Virus record (IMG/VR): IMGVR_UViG_3300032246_000707
Span: 1-24,290 of that record
Reading direction: 5' to 3' (one strand)
Length of the DNA stretch: 24,290 nucleotides
Source: a virus
This document shows, piece by piece, positions 823 to 8,522 of the stretch (the first letter of the stretch is position 1; each line of letters starts with the position of its first letter). The notes below the pieces were generated by a model. It had not been told where the DNA came from. It was given only the letters and a program-made list of their open reading frames with translations, and ran no database searches. A program made the position numbers and the translations under genes.

Positions 823-1644
823 ATGGCTCTTACAATTAAATCAAAAGAGCCATCGACAGCTAGACTTGTTCAAACCGAGTCTAGCGGTCATTGGTATACC
901 GCTGATGGCGAATCCGCCCATACTATTATGGGCAAGAATGGAAATTTCAGGAATACAACTGTTGCCGATGCAAGGAAGATGCTTCTTTACCCTAGCGTCA
1001 CGTCGATTCTGTCCATCCTAGATAAACCGCAACTTACAAGTTGGAAGATTGAGCAAGCGATTATGGCATCGCTGACGCTTCCAAAGGAGGAAGGTGAAAC
1101 ACTCGAAGAGTACGCAAAGCGTGTTGTCCGCGATTCCAAAGAATCCACAAGTAAGGCTGCCGAACACGGAACCAATATGCATGAGCAGATGGAGCATGTG
1201 CTATTGGGAAGACCTCACTCGCAGGATGAGACGATCCAGCCATACATTACGACATTCAAGAAGTGGGCAGAAGAAAACGTAGAGAAGACGTACTGGTGTG
1301 AGAAGGCTCTTGTTGGTGCAGGGTACGCTGGTCGCTGTGACGCATATGTGAAGTTGAAGGGGATTGGTGACGCGATCATCGATTTGAAGAACCGCAAGGT
1401 GAATCCAAAATATGATCCGTTCTATGAAACCTCAGACTGTCCGCAATTGTGGGCTTATAGAACCGCAAGCGAGAATCCAAAGGCAACGTGCGTATCCATC
1501 GTTCTTGCATCGAATGATTCGAGCAAGCTGATGACTAGGGTATGGGAAGATGATGAGCTGTATCAGGCTGGGATTGCGTTTAACGCGCTCTTGAAAGTGT
1601 GGGCTTGGGTTAAGGGTTATACTCCTCCTGGGATGAAGTTGTGA
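823..1644 (+). CDS. RecB/Cas4-like PD-(D/E)XK exonuclease
   Basis: A 273-residue nuclease of the PD-(D/E)XK superfamily, probably the phage recombination exonuclease. The motifs appear in order: a helix with HG..MHEQMEH (about 115-125), Glu160, GRCDAY with Asp173, IIDLKNRK giving D187-x-K189, and Gln208 in DCPQLWAY. This is the H...D...DxK...Q order of RecB-type nucleases. In such enzymes the Asp and Glu bind metal, and the protein trims one strand of duplex ends. It lies directly after the binding-protein gene and overlaps the next start by four bases (GTGA). The subfamily and polarity of digestion cannot be told from the sequence. Confidence 0.8.
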   Translation: MALTIKSKEPSTARLVQTESSGHWYTADGESAHTIMGKNGNFRNTTVADARKMLLYPSVTSILSILDKPQLTSWKIEQAIMASLTLPKEEGETLEEYAKRVVRDSKESTSKAAEHGTNMHEQMEHVLLGRPHSQDETIQPYITTFKKWAEENVEKTYWCEKALVGAGYAGRCDAYVKLKGIGDAIIDLKNRKVNPKYDPFYETSDCPQLWAYRTASENPKATCVSIVLASNDSSKLMTRVWEDDELYQAGIAFNALLKVWAWVKGYTPPGMKL

Positions 1645-2273
1645 TTGTAATGCCAACAAATAATACTGGCTTTATGATTGGATACTTAGCTGGTAAATTC
1701 AAGGATTCAATTGGACTGCTAATTTCTCCAAATGGTTGGAGGTATCTTCCAGAGGTGATTCCATATGCACTCGATAATGGGGCTTATTACGCATTCACAA
1801 ATAAAACAGAGTGGGACGAGAAAGAGTTTTATAAAATGCTGGATAAGGTTCCATGCTGGAATAAGCCGCTGTGGGTTGCCTGTCCAGATAAGGTAATGGA
1901 CAAAAATGAAACTCTAAAATTATGGGACAAGCATTATGAGAAAATTTCTGAATGGAAATATCCAGTTGCATTTGTTGCGCAGGATGGGATGACTCCGAAC
2001 GATGTTCCTAGCGAGGCTGAAATTATTTTTATGGGTGGATCTTTTGAGTGGAAGTGGAAGATGCTTCCAGAATTTTGCTCCATAGGCAAAAGAGTTCATT
2101 GCGGAAGAGTCAATTCGTATGAGGGATTGTGGATATGTGATGAAAATAATGTTGAAAGTTGCGATGGAACTGGTTGGGTTAGGGGTGGAATGAAAAGATT
2201 GCAACCTCTTATAAAATATCTAGAAGAAAAATATGGAAACGGAAGGAGTCAAAAATGTTTGCTAAAGACCTAA
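1641..2273 (+). CDS. dpdA-like: DpdA-like 7-deazaguanine DNA transglycosylase (TGT superfamily)
   Basis: A 210-residue protein that looks like a compact phage member of the tRNA-guanine transglycosylase fold. ALDNGAY (44-49, Asp45) is in the place of the TGT DSGGF base-binding loop. ACPDKVMD (80-87) follows it. VAQDG (112-116) and MGGSFEWK (131-138) resemble the GG substrate loop. HCGRVNS (153-159) precedes ESCDGTGW, whose Asp175 is the candidate nucleophile. In DpdA proteins this chemistry swaps guanine in DNA for preQ0 or a derivative. The next gene is queD, which makes a precursor of preQ0, and this strongly supports the call. The start is GTG 1641, overlapping the previous stop; ATG 1650 is an alternative. 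The exact DpdA subgroup and the final base are not visible. Assignment to TGT-like is firm; DNA rather than tRNA as target is inferred. Confidence 0.72.
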   Translation: MIVMPTNNTGFMIGYLAGKFKDSIGLLISPNGWRYLPEVIPYALDNGAYYAFTNKTEWDEKEFYKMLDKVPCWNKPLWVACPDKVMDKNETLKLWDKHYEKISEWKYPVAFVAQDGMTPNDVPSEAEIIFMGGSFEWKWKMLPEFCSIGKRVHCGRVNSYEGLWICDENNVESCDGTGWVRGGMKRLQPLIKYLEEKYGNGRSQKCLLKT

Positions 2274-2692
2274 ACAAAACAAAGTTAGGTGGAGTCAAAT
2301 ATACTGTTATACAGTCTTTCAAATTTGATGCTTCACACAATTTGAGAAAGGAAGATTTTTCATATTTGCATCACAACTCATTGGTTGGTCTTATGAAATG
2401 TTTTCATAATCACGGCCACACCTACTCGCTTGATGTCGAGTGGGAGGGTTTCCCAACTGACCAAGAGCCTATGATTTATCCATTTGGAGAGCTTAAGGAC
2501 TACACAAAAACACTTGTTCGGTGCTGCGACCACAGCAATTTGAATGAGGTATTTGATTTTCCAACTACCCTAGAAAATGTTGGGAACTGGTTCTTTAAGA
2601 GACTCAAAACATTTGAATGTGAAAAGCTAAAATTGAGAGCGATTGTTTTGCGTGAAGGCTCAAACAATAGAATAAGGGTAGAAAATATATGA
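2255..2692 (+). CDS. queD: 6-carboxytetrahydropterin synthase (QueD)
   Basis: A 145-residue PTPS/QueD-family enzyme. It converts 7,8-dihydroneopterin triphosphate to 6-carboxy-5,6,7,8-tetrahydropterin, the first committed step of preQ0 and queuosine synthesis. The family signatures are all visible: FDASHNL (zinc ligand His28), C49FHNHGHTY (catalytic Cys49, zinc ligands His53 and His55), DHSNLNE (Asp92-His93), PTTLENV (103-109) and VLREG (Glu134). A stretch of about 15 residues between the first His and the Cys is longer than in short bacterial enzymes. A strong GGAAGGAG site precedes the ATG, which lies inside the end of the transglycosylase-like gene. The stop overlaps the next start by ATGA. 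No QueC, QueE or FolE is in this window. Confidence 0.88.
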   Translation: MFAKDLNKTKLGGVKYTVIQSFKFDASHNLRKEDFSYLHHNSLVGLMKCFHNHGHTYSLDVEWEGFPTDQEPMIYPFGELKDYTKTLVRCCDHSNLNEVFDFPTTLENVGNWFFKRLKTFECEKLKLRAIVLREGSNNRIRVENI

Positions 2693-3577: not shown

Positions 3578-3976
3578 ATGCTGAAGGCAGTTTCTGCTAT
3601 ATTGCTGCTGACGACAGCATCAGCAATAAATCTTAATGTAGATACGGAGCCACCAAAGAAGAATATTAGGGTTCGCGTCACTGGCTATTGGCCAGGAGAG
3701 GATAGTTACACCAGTAAGTTTCAGAGTAGCGAGGGCGTGCGCTTAAAGGCTGGCAGGCATTGTGCGACAGACCATAGGATCATACCAGCATGGAGCAAGG
3801 TTAAGATAGTCGGCTCGCAGCAGGAGTGGGTCGTTGTGGATACAGGCACAGCTGTCATTCAAAGAAAAGCGAGTGGGTCAAGCAAATTACCTGTTTTAGA
3901 TTTATTTTTTAAATCACAAAAAGATTACGAAAAAGCTAGACTGCCTAAATACGCTACAGTAGAAGTTTCGAAATGA
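3578..3976 (+). CDS. Secreted 3D-domain (double-psi barrel) protein
   Basis: A 132-residue exported protein. Residues 1 to about 16 form a signal peptide (MLKAVSAILLLTTASA, with an A-x-A-like end). The rest matches a 3D-domain/RlpA-like double-psi barrel: RVTGYWPGEDSYTSKF, GVRLKAGRHCATDHRIIPAWS, WVVVDTGTAVI and VLDLFF, with the conserved Asp residues of ATDH, VVDTG and LDLFF. In MltA and related proteins this domain acts on peptidoglycan glycan strands. In a phage it may help lysis or entry. The start is only 3 bases after the previous stop, and the next gene overlaps its stop. It is well away from the other lysis-type genes near 16.7-17.2 kb. Confidence 0.72.
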   Translation: MLKAVSAILLLTTASAINLNVDTEPPKKNIRVRVTGYWPGEDSYTSKFQSSEGVRLKAGRHCATDHRIIPAWSKVKIVGSQQEWVVVDTGTAVIQRKASGSSKLPVLDLFFKSQKDYEKARLPKYATVEVSK

Positions 3977-4653
3977 AAAGAGCATTAGTCACTCAGGCGT
4001 TTGGAGATAAGTGGGAAGAGCTACTTAAAGTAACGCAGCCAAGGATGGAGGCGTACGCAAAGAAGTACGCAATTGATTTCATGGCGATCACGAAGCCAAT
4101 CACGCAGCCAGTCCAATATTCCAAATTGGCAATTGGTAACATCATGCTCGCTCGTGGTTATGAGCAGGTGACGTTCCTAGACGCAGATGTGCTGGTTACA
4201 TCCGACTGCGAGGATATTGGAAATCCTGATTCGGAAGGCAGTCAGCATTACTTTTGCGCCTTGGATGAGGGCGAGTTCCTAGACAGGAAGAACGGAATGG
4301 TCGAGTTGGCCAAAGGATTTGGAGGAAAGATCACGCCGAGGTTCTACGTCAATACTGGTGTATTCGTAGTGAGCAATAAGTTCCTAGGCTTATTCTCATG
4401 CCCACCATTTGGATGTTACCCAAACCATTTTGGCGAGCAGACATGGATGAACGTGCAGGCCCATATATGGGGAATGGAGCTGACTCCGCTAGATCCAACC
4501 TACAACTGTATGACAAGCGTCGAAGCGCACTTTGGATTGGATAGGTATAAGGATGCCTATATCATCCATTACGCTGGGCAGTCTGCTGATATGGACAAGT
4601 TGATCGAGATGGTTAAGGCCGACGATGCAAAGTTAAAAGAGGCAGGGCGATGA
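3973..4653 (+). CDS. GT8-like (glycogenin-type) glycosyltransferase
   Basis: A 226-residue single-domain glycosyltransferase of the GT-A fold. TFLDADVLV (68-75) carries the DxD metal and nucleotide-sugar site (Asp70, Asp72). FYVNTGVFVVS (124-134) is the acceptor loop common in GT8-type enzymes. GEQTWMN (154-160) and YIIHYAG near residue 195-201 complete the expected set. It would transfer a sugar from a nucleotide-sugar donor; the acceptor (modified DNA base, host surface sugar or virion protein) cannot be read from the sequence. It overlaps both neighbours by ATGA. With the GT9-like gene at 7383 this makes two glycosyltransferases in the early region. Confidence 0.75.
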   Translation: MKRALVTQAFGDKWEELLKVTQPRMEAYAKKYAIDFMAITKPITQPVQYSKLAIGNIMLARGYEQVTFLDADVLVTSDCEDIGNPDSEGSQHYFCALDEGEFLDRKNGMVELAKGFGGKITPRFYVNTGVFVVSNKFLGLFSCPPFGCYPNHFGEQTWMNVQAHIWGMELTPLDPTYNCMTSVEAHFGLDRYKDAYIIHYAGQSADMDKLIEMVKADDAKLKEAGR

Positions 4654-6128: not shown

Positions 6129-6308
6129 ATGCCATTAGGTAAAGACGTATCAAAAAACATGCATGAATTGGCGATGGACAATAAGAAGAAGGGTAAGGCT
6201 CGCGGTGCTGGTGGAGTACCTCGGTCCCGCAATCAGATGATTGCTATTGCCTTGTCGGCTGCTGGTAAAAGCAAGCCACGCAAGTTCAAAGCTAAGTCTG
6301 GAATGTAA
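6129..6308 (+). CDS. DUF6496-like small basic protein
   Basis: A 59-residue basic protein from ATG 6129 with an AGAAAGGAA site upstream. The core (GGVPRSRNQMIAIALSAAGK) matches a pattern I recall from the small phage family DUF6496, whose members are short, Lys/Arg-rich and often encoded near replication or packaging genes. The role is unknown; the charge suggests DNA contact. The next start shares its stop codon (TAATG). Confidence 0.6.
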   Translation: MPLGKDVSKNMHELAMDNKKKGKARGAGGVPRSRNQMIAIALSAAGKSKPRKFKAKSGM

Positions 6309-6487
6309 TGACTAAAGAGGCAAAATCACGCCTCCAGTGGTCGCGCGATATCCTTCTCATTGCTCGCGGAAAGCTGGCAGTTGAGAGGGATCGCGTGAGC
6401 CATGGCCATGCCATAGATATGATTCAGATCATAACCATGGTGGATGCTGCTGCCCTGATAGCGAAGGAGATTATTGAAGGTGAATGA
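6308..6487 (+). CDS. Small helical hypothetical protein, 59 residues
   Basis: A short gene from ATG 6308 to TGA 6485-6487. The product is almost entirely helical and charged at the front (KEAKSRLQWSRDILLIARGK), with a more apolar C-terminal helix. It shares one base with the previous stop and its end overlaps the methyltransferase start. No family recognised. Confidence 0.55.
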   Translation: MTKEAKSRLQWSRDILLIARGKLAVERDRVSHGHAIDMIQIITMVDAAALIAKEIIEGE

Positions 6488-7386
6488 AAAAACACACCTC
6501 GACTTATTTAGTGGGATCGGAGGATTTGCCTTGGCAGCAAAGTGGAATGGATATAGAACCGTTGGCTTCTGTGACAACGAACCCTACGCACAAGCAGTCC
6601 TCAAAAGGCATTGGCCAGAAGTCCCATGCCACAAAGACATCCGAGAAGTACGAGGCGAGCTATACGCAGGAGTCACTCTTCTCACAGGTGGATTTCCATG
6701 CCAGCCGTTCTCCAATGCTGGGAAGCAAAGAGGCAAGAACGATGACCGTTATCTCTGGCCAGAAATGCTTAGGGTCATACATGAAGCAAGGCCAACTTGG
6801 ATCATTGGTGAGAATGTTGCTGGGATCGTCAATATGGAACTCGACCAAGTGCATATTGACTTGGAAGCGGAAGACTACGAAGTCGAATCGATCATTATTC
6901 CAGCTTGCGGTGTCGATGCCCCGCACAGGAGGAACAGAGTCTGGATTATCGGACGTAACAAAAACAACAATGTGGCCAACTCCGAGGGCCTGCGACTTGG
7001 AGGGTGGAGTGAGTCAAGCAACCAATATGGGGGGGGGGATGGTACAGAGAGAATCAAAAGGGAGAAAGGTGGGGAGTCAAGTTGAAGGATGCTGTCCATT
7101 CTGCGGAGAGACTATGGCCGACTCCGAGCAGTCGAGACGGCAAGGGTGGGTACAGGGGGGGGCGAGTGAGGAATGGAAAGATTTCCAGAGACACGCTCGA
7201 TGTTGCTGTGCAGCACGAGGAGAATCATGGGAAGCAGTCTGGCCAGCTGAACCCAGAGTGGGTCGCTTGGCTCATGGGGTATCCAATAGAGTGGCTAAAC
7301 TGCGTGGACTCGGAAATGCCATCGTCCCGCAAGTCGCGTCAGAAATCATCAGATGCATCAACAAAATAATGGAGGATAACAAATGA
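6480..7386 (+). CDS. dcm-like: C5-cytosine DNA methyltransferase, split by a G10 run (frameshifted)
   Basis: This would methylate cytosine at C5 in DNA. The N-terminal frame, from GTG 6480 (AAGGAG 10 bases upstream), shows the motifs in order: DLFSGIGG (I), the catalytic GGFPCQPFS with Cys74 (IV), GENVAG (VI) and PHRRNRVWIIG (VIII). The frame then stops at 7085. The expected C-terminal motif (RVAKLRGLGNAIVPQV, motif IX-X) sits in another frame that ends at 7384-7386 and overlaps the next start by ATGA. The two frames meet in a run of ten G (7029-7038): with nine G the gene reads through for about 301 residues. As written, the enzyme lacks motif X and is probably inactive. The cause may be phase variation, a natural mutation or a homopolymer sequencing error. 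Confidence 0.8.
6484..7369 (+). CDS. Second reading frame overprinted on the methyltransferase
   Basis: The +1 frame relative to the methyltransferase is open from ATG 6484, which overlaps the previous stop (ATGA). Its product contains CILTWKRKTTKSNRSLFQLA, PRTGGTESGLS and MWPTPRACD, and after the G run, in the third frame, ERWGVKLKDAV, LWPTPSSRDGKGG and GQLNPEWVAWLMGYPIEW. I recall this set of motifs (TWK...FQL, WPTP.a.D, LNP.WV.WLMG.P) from phage proteins often annotated as DNA methyltransferase-associated. Losing one G from the G10 run would join the two parts into about 294 residues. So one base change repairs both overlapping proteins. Function unknown. That the frame is really translated is inferred from the motif match. 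Confidence 0.5.
7029..7038 (+). repeat. Run of ten G inside the methyltransferase locus
   Basis: A ten-base G homopolymer at the junction where both overlapping reading frames change. A second run of eight G at 7155-7162 is consistent with the frames on both sides and needs no correction. Long G runs are prone to slipped-strand mispairing in replication and to errors in some sequencing methods. Confidence 0.9.
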
Positions 7387-8522
7387 AACTATGGAAAAAC
7401 AACACACCAGCAGTCCACGTTGTGGACGATAATAAACTGTGGCCACGCTGTAGCTACATCCTGCCAGACGAGCTGACCAACGCTCCGTTCAACGAGGCGA
7501 TCCCTGTTCCGCACAAGATCAAGCCATACTATCCAGGCAGAGCTGAGGGTGGATCGACTGCCTTATACCGAGCTGGGGCAATCGGTGACGCAATCATGGC
7601 GACTGGGATTGTTCGCTATTTGGTGGATACATCTGGTGGGAGCGTGGACATTTACTGTCCTGCTCGGAACATGTCGCTGTTCGCTGGCCTAGGTGCGAAT
7701 GTATATCCACTACCACCCACCGAGGAAGCATGGGATTCCTACGATGCGCACGTTGTGCTGGATGATTTATTTTCAGGCAAAGTTGGCGGAACGGAGCTAG
7801 GCACTGGACCTGGTTGTCACTACGATAGGATTTATAACTGGATGGGTGCAGAGGGGATTGTTGCTGATATCACTGGAAGGGCTGGAGATGTTAAGCTTGT
7901 CGATCCTAAGTACAAACGTCCGCACCTCTACGTTGTCCAGCCTGACCATGAGGAGTTGGTTAAGAGTGGACGCTGGCCTTTGCCTAATCCTTACTTCGTC
8001 TATCACGTTTCGTCATCTGGTCCAACCCGCACCTATCCACCGCAGCTAGGTAAGTTGGCAGTGCAGGCGTTGCTGGAAGAGTTTCCAAAACATCATGCGG
8101 TCATCATGGGGCTGGACAGGTCAATTGACTTTAACATCCAGCATCCGCGCATATATGATTTGTTTAACTCAACTGCAAATGTTCGCACGTTATTCCCAGT
8201 CGTGAATGGTGCTGACTTCGTTGTCGCACCTGACAGCAGCGTGAACCACATGGCAGCTGGCTTGGATACGGCGTGCATATCGTTATGGGGATCGTACGAC
8301 CCAATGGATCGTTGCAAGTATTATCCAAAGTCATATCCAGTGTTTGTTCCTGAGGTTTGTCCGCATGCTCCTTGCAGACCCCACGGCGCGCTACCACAAG
8401 CCAAGTGCAAGGACGCGAGCAATAAGACCAAAGGCACGCAATACTGGTGCAACGCTCTTCGTAACATCACGGCTGAGATGATTGTGGATAAAGCAAAGAA
8501 GGCGATGGAGGAAGAGGGGTAA
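7383..8522 (+). CDS. GT9-like (heptosyltransferase-type) glycosyltransferase
   Basis: A 379-residue protein with the GT-B layout of glycosyltransferase family 9. RAGAIGDAIMAT (63-74) is the N-terminal G-D motif that follows strand 1. FVYHVSSSGPTRTYPP (about 205-220) is at the start of the donor domain. FVVAPDSSVNHMAAGLDT (279-296) is the nucleotide-sugar site, followed by SLWGSYDP. Family 9 enzymes add heptose or other sugars to lipopolysaccharide core in bacteria. A phage copy may alter host surface sugars or modify another acceptor. The C-terminus has several Cys (near 330-360) that could bind a metal. Its ATG overlaps the methyltransferase stop (ATGA). Confidence 0.75.
   Translation: MKLWKNNTPAVHVVDDNKLWPRCSYILPDELTNAPFNEAIPVPHKIKPYYPGRAEGGSTALYRAGAIGDAIMATGIVRYLVDTSGGSVDIYCPARNMSLFAGLGANVYPLPPTEEAWDSYDAHVVLDDLFSGKVGGTELGTGPGCHYDRIYNWMGAEGIVADITGRAGDVKLVDPKYKRPHLYVVQPDHEELVKSGRWPLPNPYFVYHVSSSGPTRTYPPQLGKLAVQALLEEFPKHHAVIMGLDRSIDFNIQHPRIYDLFNSTANVRTLFPVVNGADFVVAPDSSVNHMAAGLDTACISLWGSYDPMDRCKYYPKSYPVFVPEVCPHAPCRPHGALPQAKCKDASNKTKGTQYWCNALRNITAEMIVDKAKKAMEEEG

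Follow-up and report, generated by a model that had tools for sequence, protein, structure and literature searches.

A cytosine methyltransferase gene (MT) in a phage fragment from IMG/VR (IMGVR_UViG_3300032246_000707, positions 1 to 24,290; this whole stretch of 24,290 nucleotides is referred to as the window) is overlapped in the +1 frame by a second protein-coding frame, here named ALT. The overprinting of MT and ALT is very secure. We consider it highly probable that the two proteins form a split C5-methyltransferase, a heterodimer in which the frame-0 protein MT is the alpha subunit and ALT, the proposed beta subunit, determines specificity; translation of beta, its binding to alpha, its role in specificity and the methylation activity are inferred, and no expression or activity data are available.

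Organization of the methyltransferase locus

The features of the locus are listed in Table 1. The joined MT protein matched PF00145 (E=2.7e-41) and phrog_363 (E=3.8e-74), and all of the C5-cytosine DNA methyltransferase motifs I, IV (PCQ), VI (ENV), VIII, and X are present, with PC, ENV, R.R, and GN invariant across 100 MT homologues. In the window, where the tract at 7029-7038 is a G10, MT runs into an in-frame stop at 7083-7085 and its C-terminus follows the frame of the ORF at 6484-7386. The ATG of ALT lies 4 nt past the GTG of MT. A preliminary description of this DNA, made from the letters alone, had followed the +1 frame from 6484 to the G run and then in the third frame to 7369, and these coordinates were confirmed. 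It had also taken the ordered motifs of ALT for those of a real phage family and not of a shadow frame, which is borne out by the match of joined ALT to phrog_1008 (E=7.6e-36; residues 37-280 on profile positions 11-289 of 329). The joined translations agree with its proposal that the loss of one G joins both proteins, and the long overprinted pair with a tract common to both frames that it described is found naturally intact in the relatives L002, L003, and L004. Two glycosyltransferase-like genes are located near the methyltransferase, at 3973-4653 and 7383-8522 of the window (Glyco_transf_8, 3.4e-07; Glyco_transf_9, 1.3e-05).

Table 1. Coordinates of the MT and ALT features in the window, and of the separate gene pairs in two actinophages (TRD, target-recognition domain).
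Feature	Positions	Strand	Remarks
59-aa ORF 5' of the pair	6308..6487	+	stop TGA 6485-6487 overlaps ALT ATG 6484-6486, just 3' of MT GTG 6480
MT N-terminal frame, catalytic domain	6480..7085	+	GTG start 6480; PF00145 and phrog_363 matched by the joined protein
MT motif I	6507-6524	+	
MT motif IV	6696-6710	+	
MT motif VI	6810-6824	+	
MT motif VIII	6924-6938	+	
MT C-terminal part past the G run, with motif X at 7309-7332 (LGNAIVPQ)	7039..7386	+	joined in frame to the N-terminal part in L002, L003, L004
ALT N-terminal part, +1 frame	6484..7038	+	phrog_1008 match; selection
ALT N-terminal motif GSKEAR..MT.ISG		+	
ALT N-terminal motif CILTWK	6850-6867	+	
ALT N-terminal motif SLFQLAVSMPRT	6892-6927	+	
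ALT N-terminal motif WPTPRACD	6973-6996	+	
ALT C-terminal part, third frame	7029..7369	+	88-89% identical and unbroken in L002 and L003
ALT second WPTP module, WPTPSSRD	7115-7138	+	
ALT motif-IX-like LNPEWVAWLMGYP	7247-7285	+	
G10 tract in both frames	7029..7038	+	
Second tract, G8, in both frames	7155..7162	+	equal length in L002, L003, L006, L007
Streptomyces phage Samy (L430), adjacent genes for catalytic half / TRD half	1351-1881 and 1943-2692		no long overlap
Arthrobacter phage Tophat (L432), adjacent genes for catalytic half / TRD half	586-1443 and 1406-2683		no long overlap

Selection on both reading frames

Among the first 63 full-length homologues tested, the open stretch of the +1 frame was longer than in all 200 synonymous shuffles in every case (63/63). 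When stops were counted in up to 121 non-redundant MTs against synonymous, codon-matched shuffles, the +1 frame contained none between motifs IV and VIII (155 expected) and 11 in the TRD (125 expected), while no depletion was seen upstream (196 vs. 156 expected), past motif X (119 vs. 75 expected), or in the +2 frame. Canonical methyltransferases without ALT, taken from the same bacterial genomes, had stops at chance level (26 vs. 27.8 and 42 vs. 42.2). Four-fold third-base identity across 140 MTs was 0.457 (motifs IV-VIII) and 0.624 (TRD), compared to 0.284 and 0.306 outside the ALT span and about 0.27 throughout in the shuffles; the synonymous sites of MT are frozen only within the ALT span.

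Overlap-aware rates were obtained from 39 independent close pairs by classing each substitution according to its effect in both frames. In the upstream part, these 39 pairs showed no constraint on ALT (SN 0.243, SS 0.247). Omega in the catalytic part was 0.30-0.38 for ALT and about 0.10-0.13 for MT; in the TRD it was 0.22-0.31 for ALT, and MT was relaxed to 0.56-0.78. As the SS counts are small (12-27), ratios that use them are rough. The rates indicate that both frames are selected, MT being dominant over the catalytic part and ALT over the specificity part. The comparison of synonymous and non-synonymous change that the preliminary description had suggested thus gave purifying selection in MT and ALT alike.

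Distribution of the ALT family

ALT matched 213 INPHARED phage records by tblastn, including phages of Paenibacillus, Escherichia, Klebsiella, and Salmonella. Across viral contigs, at least 600 stretches matched in a scan, 471 of which encode ALT relatives. Among bacteria, ALT is carried by genomes of more than 12 phyla, including Bacillota, Pseudomonadota, Acidobacteriota, Verrucomicrobiota, Planctomycetota, Actinomycetota, Patescibacteria, and Synergistota; the genome scan used the tighter ALT alignment A2 because A1 was too diverse. ALT is +1 relative to MT nearly everywhere in phages, prophages, and bacterial genomes (hundreds of cases). Since sampling based on ALT would bring ascertainment, a further set of loci was selected on MT only, and ALT was present in 80/80 of these, with one whole ORF per frame in 76/80. 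The two samples overlap, many of the 80 contigs being also in the ALT-based scans. The viral and bacterial sets that were searched contained no stand-alone ALT without a methyltransferase, and the separate ALT genes of the phages Samy and Tophat adjoin a catalytic half.

Some annotators have recorded both overlapping ORFs, as 'Mte8-like protein' in K1 phages and as 'g55 internal gene' in Paenibacillus phage Shelly. These belong to the same family as ALT, as does phrog_1008 ('DNA methyltransferase'), and the records seen give the second frame no function or mechanism. There is no ALT family in Pfam or NCBIfam. A literature search with partial coverage did not find a paper on this overlap with a cytosine methyltransferase, or on the overlap as a general phage feature.

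Tandem arrays of two overprinted methyltransferase pairs were observed in L230 (133-1952) and L288 (1786-3850), and five identical copies of the pair (L252-L256) are located at different sites of one Roseovarius MAG chromosome. The ALT module RxCDLEGGVVKN..RxGVKLKDAV is nearly unchanged between distant families (A1 columns 325-400; e.g., L003, L061, L065, L074, and L079). Judged from the alignment, this recurrence looks as if specificity cassettes had been exchanged.

ALT as the putative target-recognition subunit

The AlphaFold model of MT is confident for residues 1-166 (catalytic) and 270-300 (motif-X helix) and leaves residues 174-265 unstructured (pLDDT under 50). Foldseek matched only the catalytic part of HhaI/HaeIII, over about 165-175 columns. 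A monomeric enzyme is expected to combine a TRD and motif IX in one chain, which MT does not do. Canonical methyltransferases of the same bacterial genomes retain motif IX (RRLTPRECARLMGF) ahead of motif X; at this position MT has EPxVGRVAxGVPxR, and the +1 frame reads LNPxWVEWLMGYP. The only profile match of ALT was that of LMGYPTEW to canonical motif IX, which is weak (8 columns, P 0.02-0.08). The AlphaFold model of ALT alone is likewise weak (pLDDT 61, pTM 0.29); Foldseek with this low-confidence model gave no PDB match, and neither did PDB sequence searches with ALT or ORF2 of L224.

Among actinophages, the probe motif LNPxFxEWMMGxPxGWVTD is followed by motif X in one frame in 568 records. 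The in-frame location ahead of motif X in actinophage single chains favours the reading of the ALT segment as motif IX. The single-chain prophiGD91-2 gp27, for example, contains motif X together with a catalytic domain (MT profile, 1.5e-56) and a TRD with ALT-type PTP modules (ALT profile, 8e-16 in a small database). In Samy and Tophat (Table 1) the TRD halves are encoded by separate genes, gp50 and gp82, respectively, and many PTP modules are found in Tophat gp82. Homologues of ALT outside an overlapping frame, which the preliminary description had proposed to look for, thus exist both as these separate genes and within mycobacteriophage single-chain enzymes. In L172 (2293-3595) and L224 (2290-3469), frame 0 keeps only MT motifs I-VIII and decays past VIII, and the ALT ORF stays open and runs in frame into motif X. 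On sequence grounds this layout is an apparent M.AquI-like split derived from the overprinted layout. The absence of motif IX and a folded TRD from MT, the fused and separate TRDs of the actinophages, and L172 and L224 together make ALT best read as a subunit carrying the TRD and motif IX. Rather than being unrelated to MT, the second protein is thus probably part of one enzyme with it, as the target-recognition subunit.

A single in-frame stop in the MT linker between motifs VIII and X, with ALT intact, was observed in L181 (2035-3147), L166 (94-951), and L259 (2266-3246). It could represent a split alpha, stop readthrough, or decay.

Translation start of ALT

In families in which ALT opens inside MT, an ATG located 10-25 codons before motif IV is preceded by a Shine-Dalgarno sequence of at least 6 nt (e.g., AAAGGAGTTAGCAA-ATG) in 33 of 118 loci, compared to 4.95 expected. 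The window clade has no strong ribosome site for ALT, and its ATG shares bases with the stop codon of the preceding ORF (ATGA, 6484-6487). From this overlap we infer that ALT may be translationally coupled. With no strong ribosome site, and with little constraint on the N-terminal extension of ALT before motif IV in this clade, the true start of beta is uncertain.

The G tract in near relatives

The window contains only two G runs of at least 8, the G10 and G8 tracts of Table 1. Both frames shift at the G10, MT into the frame of the 6484 ORF and ALT into the third frame, and one base fewer joins both. In the window and L007 the tract is G10+A and both frames are broken. Both proteins are naturally joined in L002 and L003 (G9+A) and in L004 (G10+T), and the MT N-terminal part is fused to the ALT C-terminal part in L006 (G9+T). 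A tract length that differs between near copies and changes the frame, as expected of a phase-variable gene, was thus observed (G9/G10; joined, +1 or -1; six close relatives). Other switched copies include L041, with a (GA)19 / (AG)19 repeat in the specificity region (2522-2559) and the MT N-terminal part fused in frame to the ALT C-terminal part, L264 with an (AG)7 repeat, and L138 with a G10. No repeat was found in L120, where the same in-frame fusion occurs, or in L355; the disruption of L138, L265, and L355 resembles simple decay by frameshift. Runs of G or C of at least 8 are about 5.7x denser in the overlap than in the flanks (p 8e-7, relatedness uncorrected), and we estimate that this excess is weaker once the window clade is counted once.

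That the G tract is a phase-variation switch common to both frames is plausible and unproven, and we would give it at most an even chance. For the common switch suggested in the preliminary description, the only support comes from differing tract lengths in six near relatives, and within-population data are lacking. Our wider suggestion, that overprinted phage methyltransferases with a slippage-prone tract are a widespread three-state switch (joined, broken, or a fusion of catalytic domain and TRD subunit as in L006), is tentative. If true, one slip would alter both subunits together.

Comparison with known two-polypeptide methyltransferases

The small gene of M.EcoHK31I is reportedly contained within the large one, in a different frame, and M.EaeI is also a two-polypeptide C5-methyltransferase of this kind. 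If the nesting is as reported, the window pair resembles M.EcoHK31I in having a second polypeptide inside the first gene in another frame, and by analogy, with no sequence comparison behind it, the pair may be said to work like M.EcoHK31I in layout. The two-polypeptide C5-methyltransferases reported are M.AquI (CYCGRG) and M.EcoHK31I (YGGCCR); in M.EcoHK31I motif IX is on the small polypeptide, and motifs I-VIII and X, together with a predicted TRD, are on the large one, whereas in M.AquI motifs IX and X are both on the small subunit (PMC3404938, which cites Lee, Kam and Shaw 1995 for M.EcoHK31I). Unlike in M.EcoHK31I, the TRD modules of the window are in the +1 protein, the MT/ALT pair occurs in phages of many phyla, and a homopolymer is common to both frames. 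As in M.AquI, the catalytic half and the TRD half are on separate polypeptides, but the M.AquI pattern, with motif X on the TRD-bearing subunit and genes that are not nested, is not met in the window clade, where motif X is in the MT frame; among the relatives its motif pattern is found only in L172, L224, and phage Samy. The locus also resembles phase-variable bacterial methyltransferases, which switch by slippage in simple repeats, in having a hypermutable-type coding tract whose length differs between near relatives. It differs from them in that one tract lies in two overlapping frames, so that one slip breaks or joins both, and in that within-population variation has not been shown.

Discussion

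In the proposed mechanism, alpha would contribute an AdoMet-binding catalytic domain with motifs I-VIII, a poorly structured linker and then motif X, and beta would contribute the TRD, with its tandem WPTP modules, and motif IX. In many families beta would be translated from its own internal ATG with a Shine-Dalgarno sequence, and the two subunits would assemble into an active enzyme analogous to the two-polypeptide M.EcoHK31I. With G10 in place of G9, both subunits are out of frame in the window and the enzyme is predicted to be OFF; a slippage event within the G run would toggle both subunits at once.

Other readings of ALT have to be considered. A shadow frame, open and alike among relatives only through MT conservation and codon bias, can practically be dismissed: any frame looks conserved where MT is nearly identical, but this leaves unexplained the complete lack of +1 stops between motifs IV and VIII when neither the +2 frame nor the sequence beyond the ALT span is depleted of them, the chance level in canonical enzymes, an ALT constraint exceeding that of MT in the TRD, and the existence of separate ALT genes. 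Programmed ribosomal frameshifting out of MT could instead produce ALT as part of a fusion of catalytic domain and TRD, without a start of its own, as the in-frame fusions of L006, L041, and L120 and the single chains of actinophages might suggest. We regard this as very improbable, given the excess of internal ATGs with a Shine-Dalgarno sequence and the constraint on ALT over motifs IV-VIII, well upstream of any shift point; a single frameshift would also leave out motif X, since this lies in the frame of MT. Only slightly less improbable is a genuine overprinted protein with a function apart from methylation, such as anti-restriction or host interaction. Its N-terminal segment (GSEEARKMT.TSG, LTWK, PS.PRT), conserved over the catalytic motifs of MT and absent from the single-chain actinophage enzymes examined, would fit such a function; however, the TRD/IX half of ALT shares homology with the TRD that actinophage methyltransferases carry in frame, an MT N-terminal half overlapped or adjoined ALT wherever it was found in the sets searched, and TRD and motif IX are exactly the parts that MT is without.

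For the tract, as distinct from ALT, the competing explanation has real weight. The G10 of the window may be a sequencing or assembly error, or mark a dying gene, and not a switch, which we hold to be a serious possibility if somewhat short of an even one. Homopolymers are error-prone, and three copies (L138, L265, and L355) resemble plain frameshift decay. Against this, G10+A is also found in the independent contig L007, the tract differs in other relatives, long G/C runs are concentrated in the overlap (with the reservation on relatedness given above), and repeats occur in other switched copies, (GA)19 in L041 and (AG)7 in L264.

To our knowledge, long same-strand overprinting with measurable selection in both frames has rarely been documented in bacteria or phages. 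The overprint of MT and ALT occurs in hundreds of phages and across more than 12 phyla, and has clean internal controls, as selection begins and ends with ALT. Read as a split methyltransferase, it provides a predicted function for phrog_1008 and would explain why a target-recognition domain is absent from many phage methyltransferases. Standard annotation keeps one of the two genes, and both are probably needed. The relatives represent natural intermediates, fused, separate, overprinted, and split, through which the origin of an overprinted enzyme may be studied directly.
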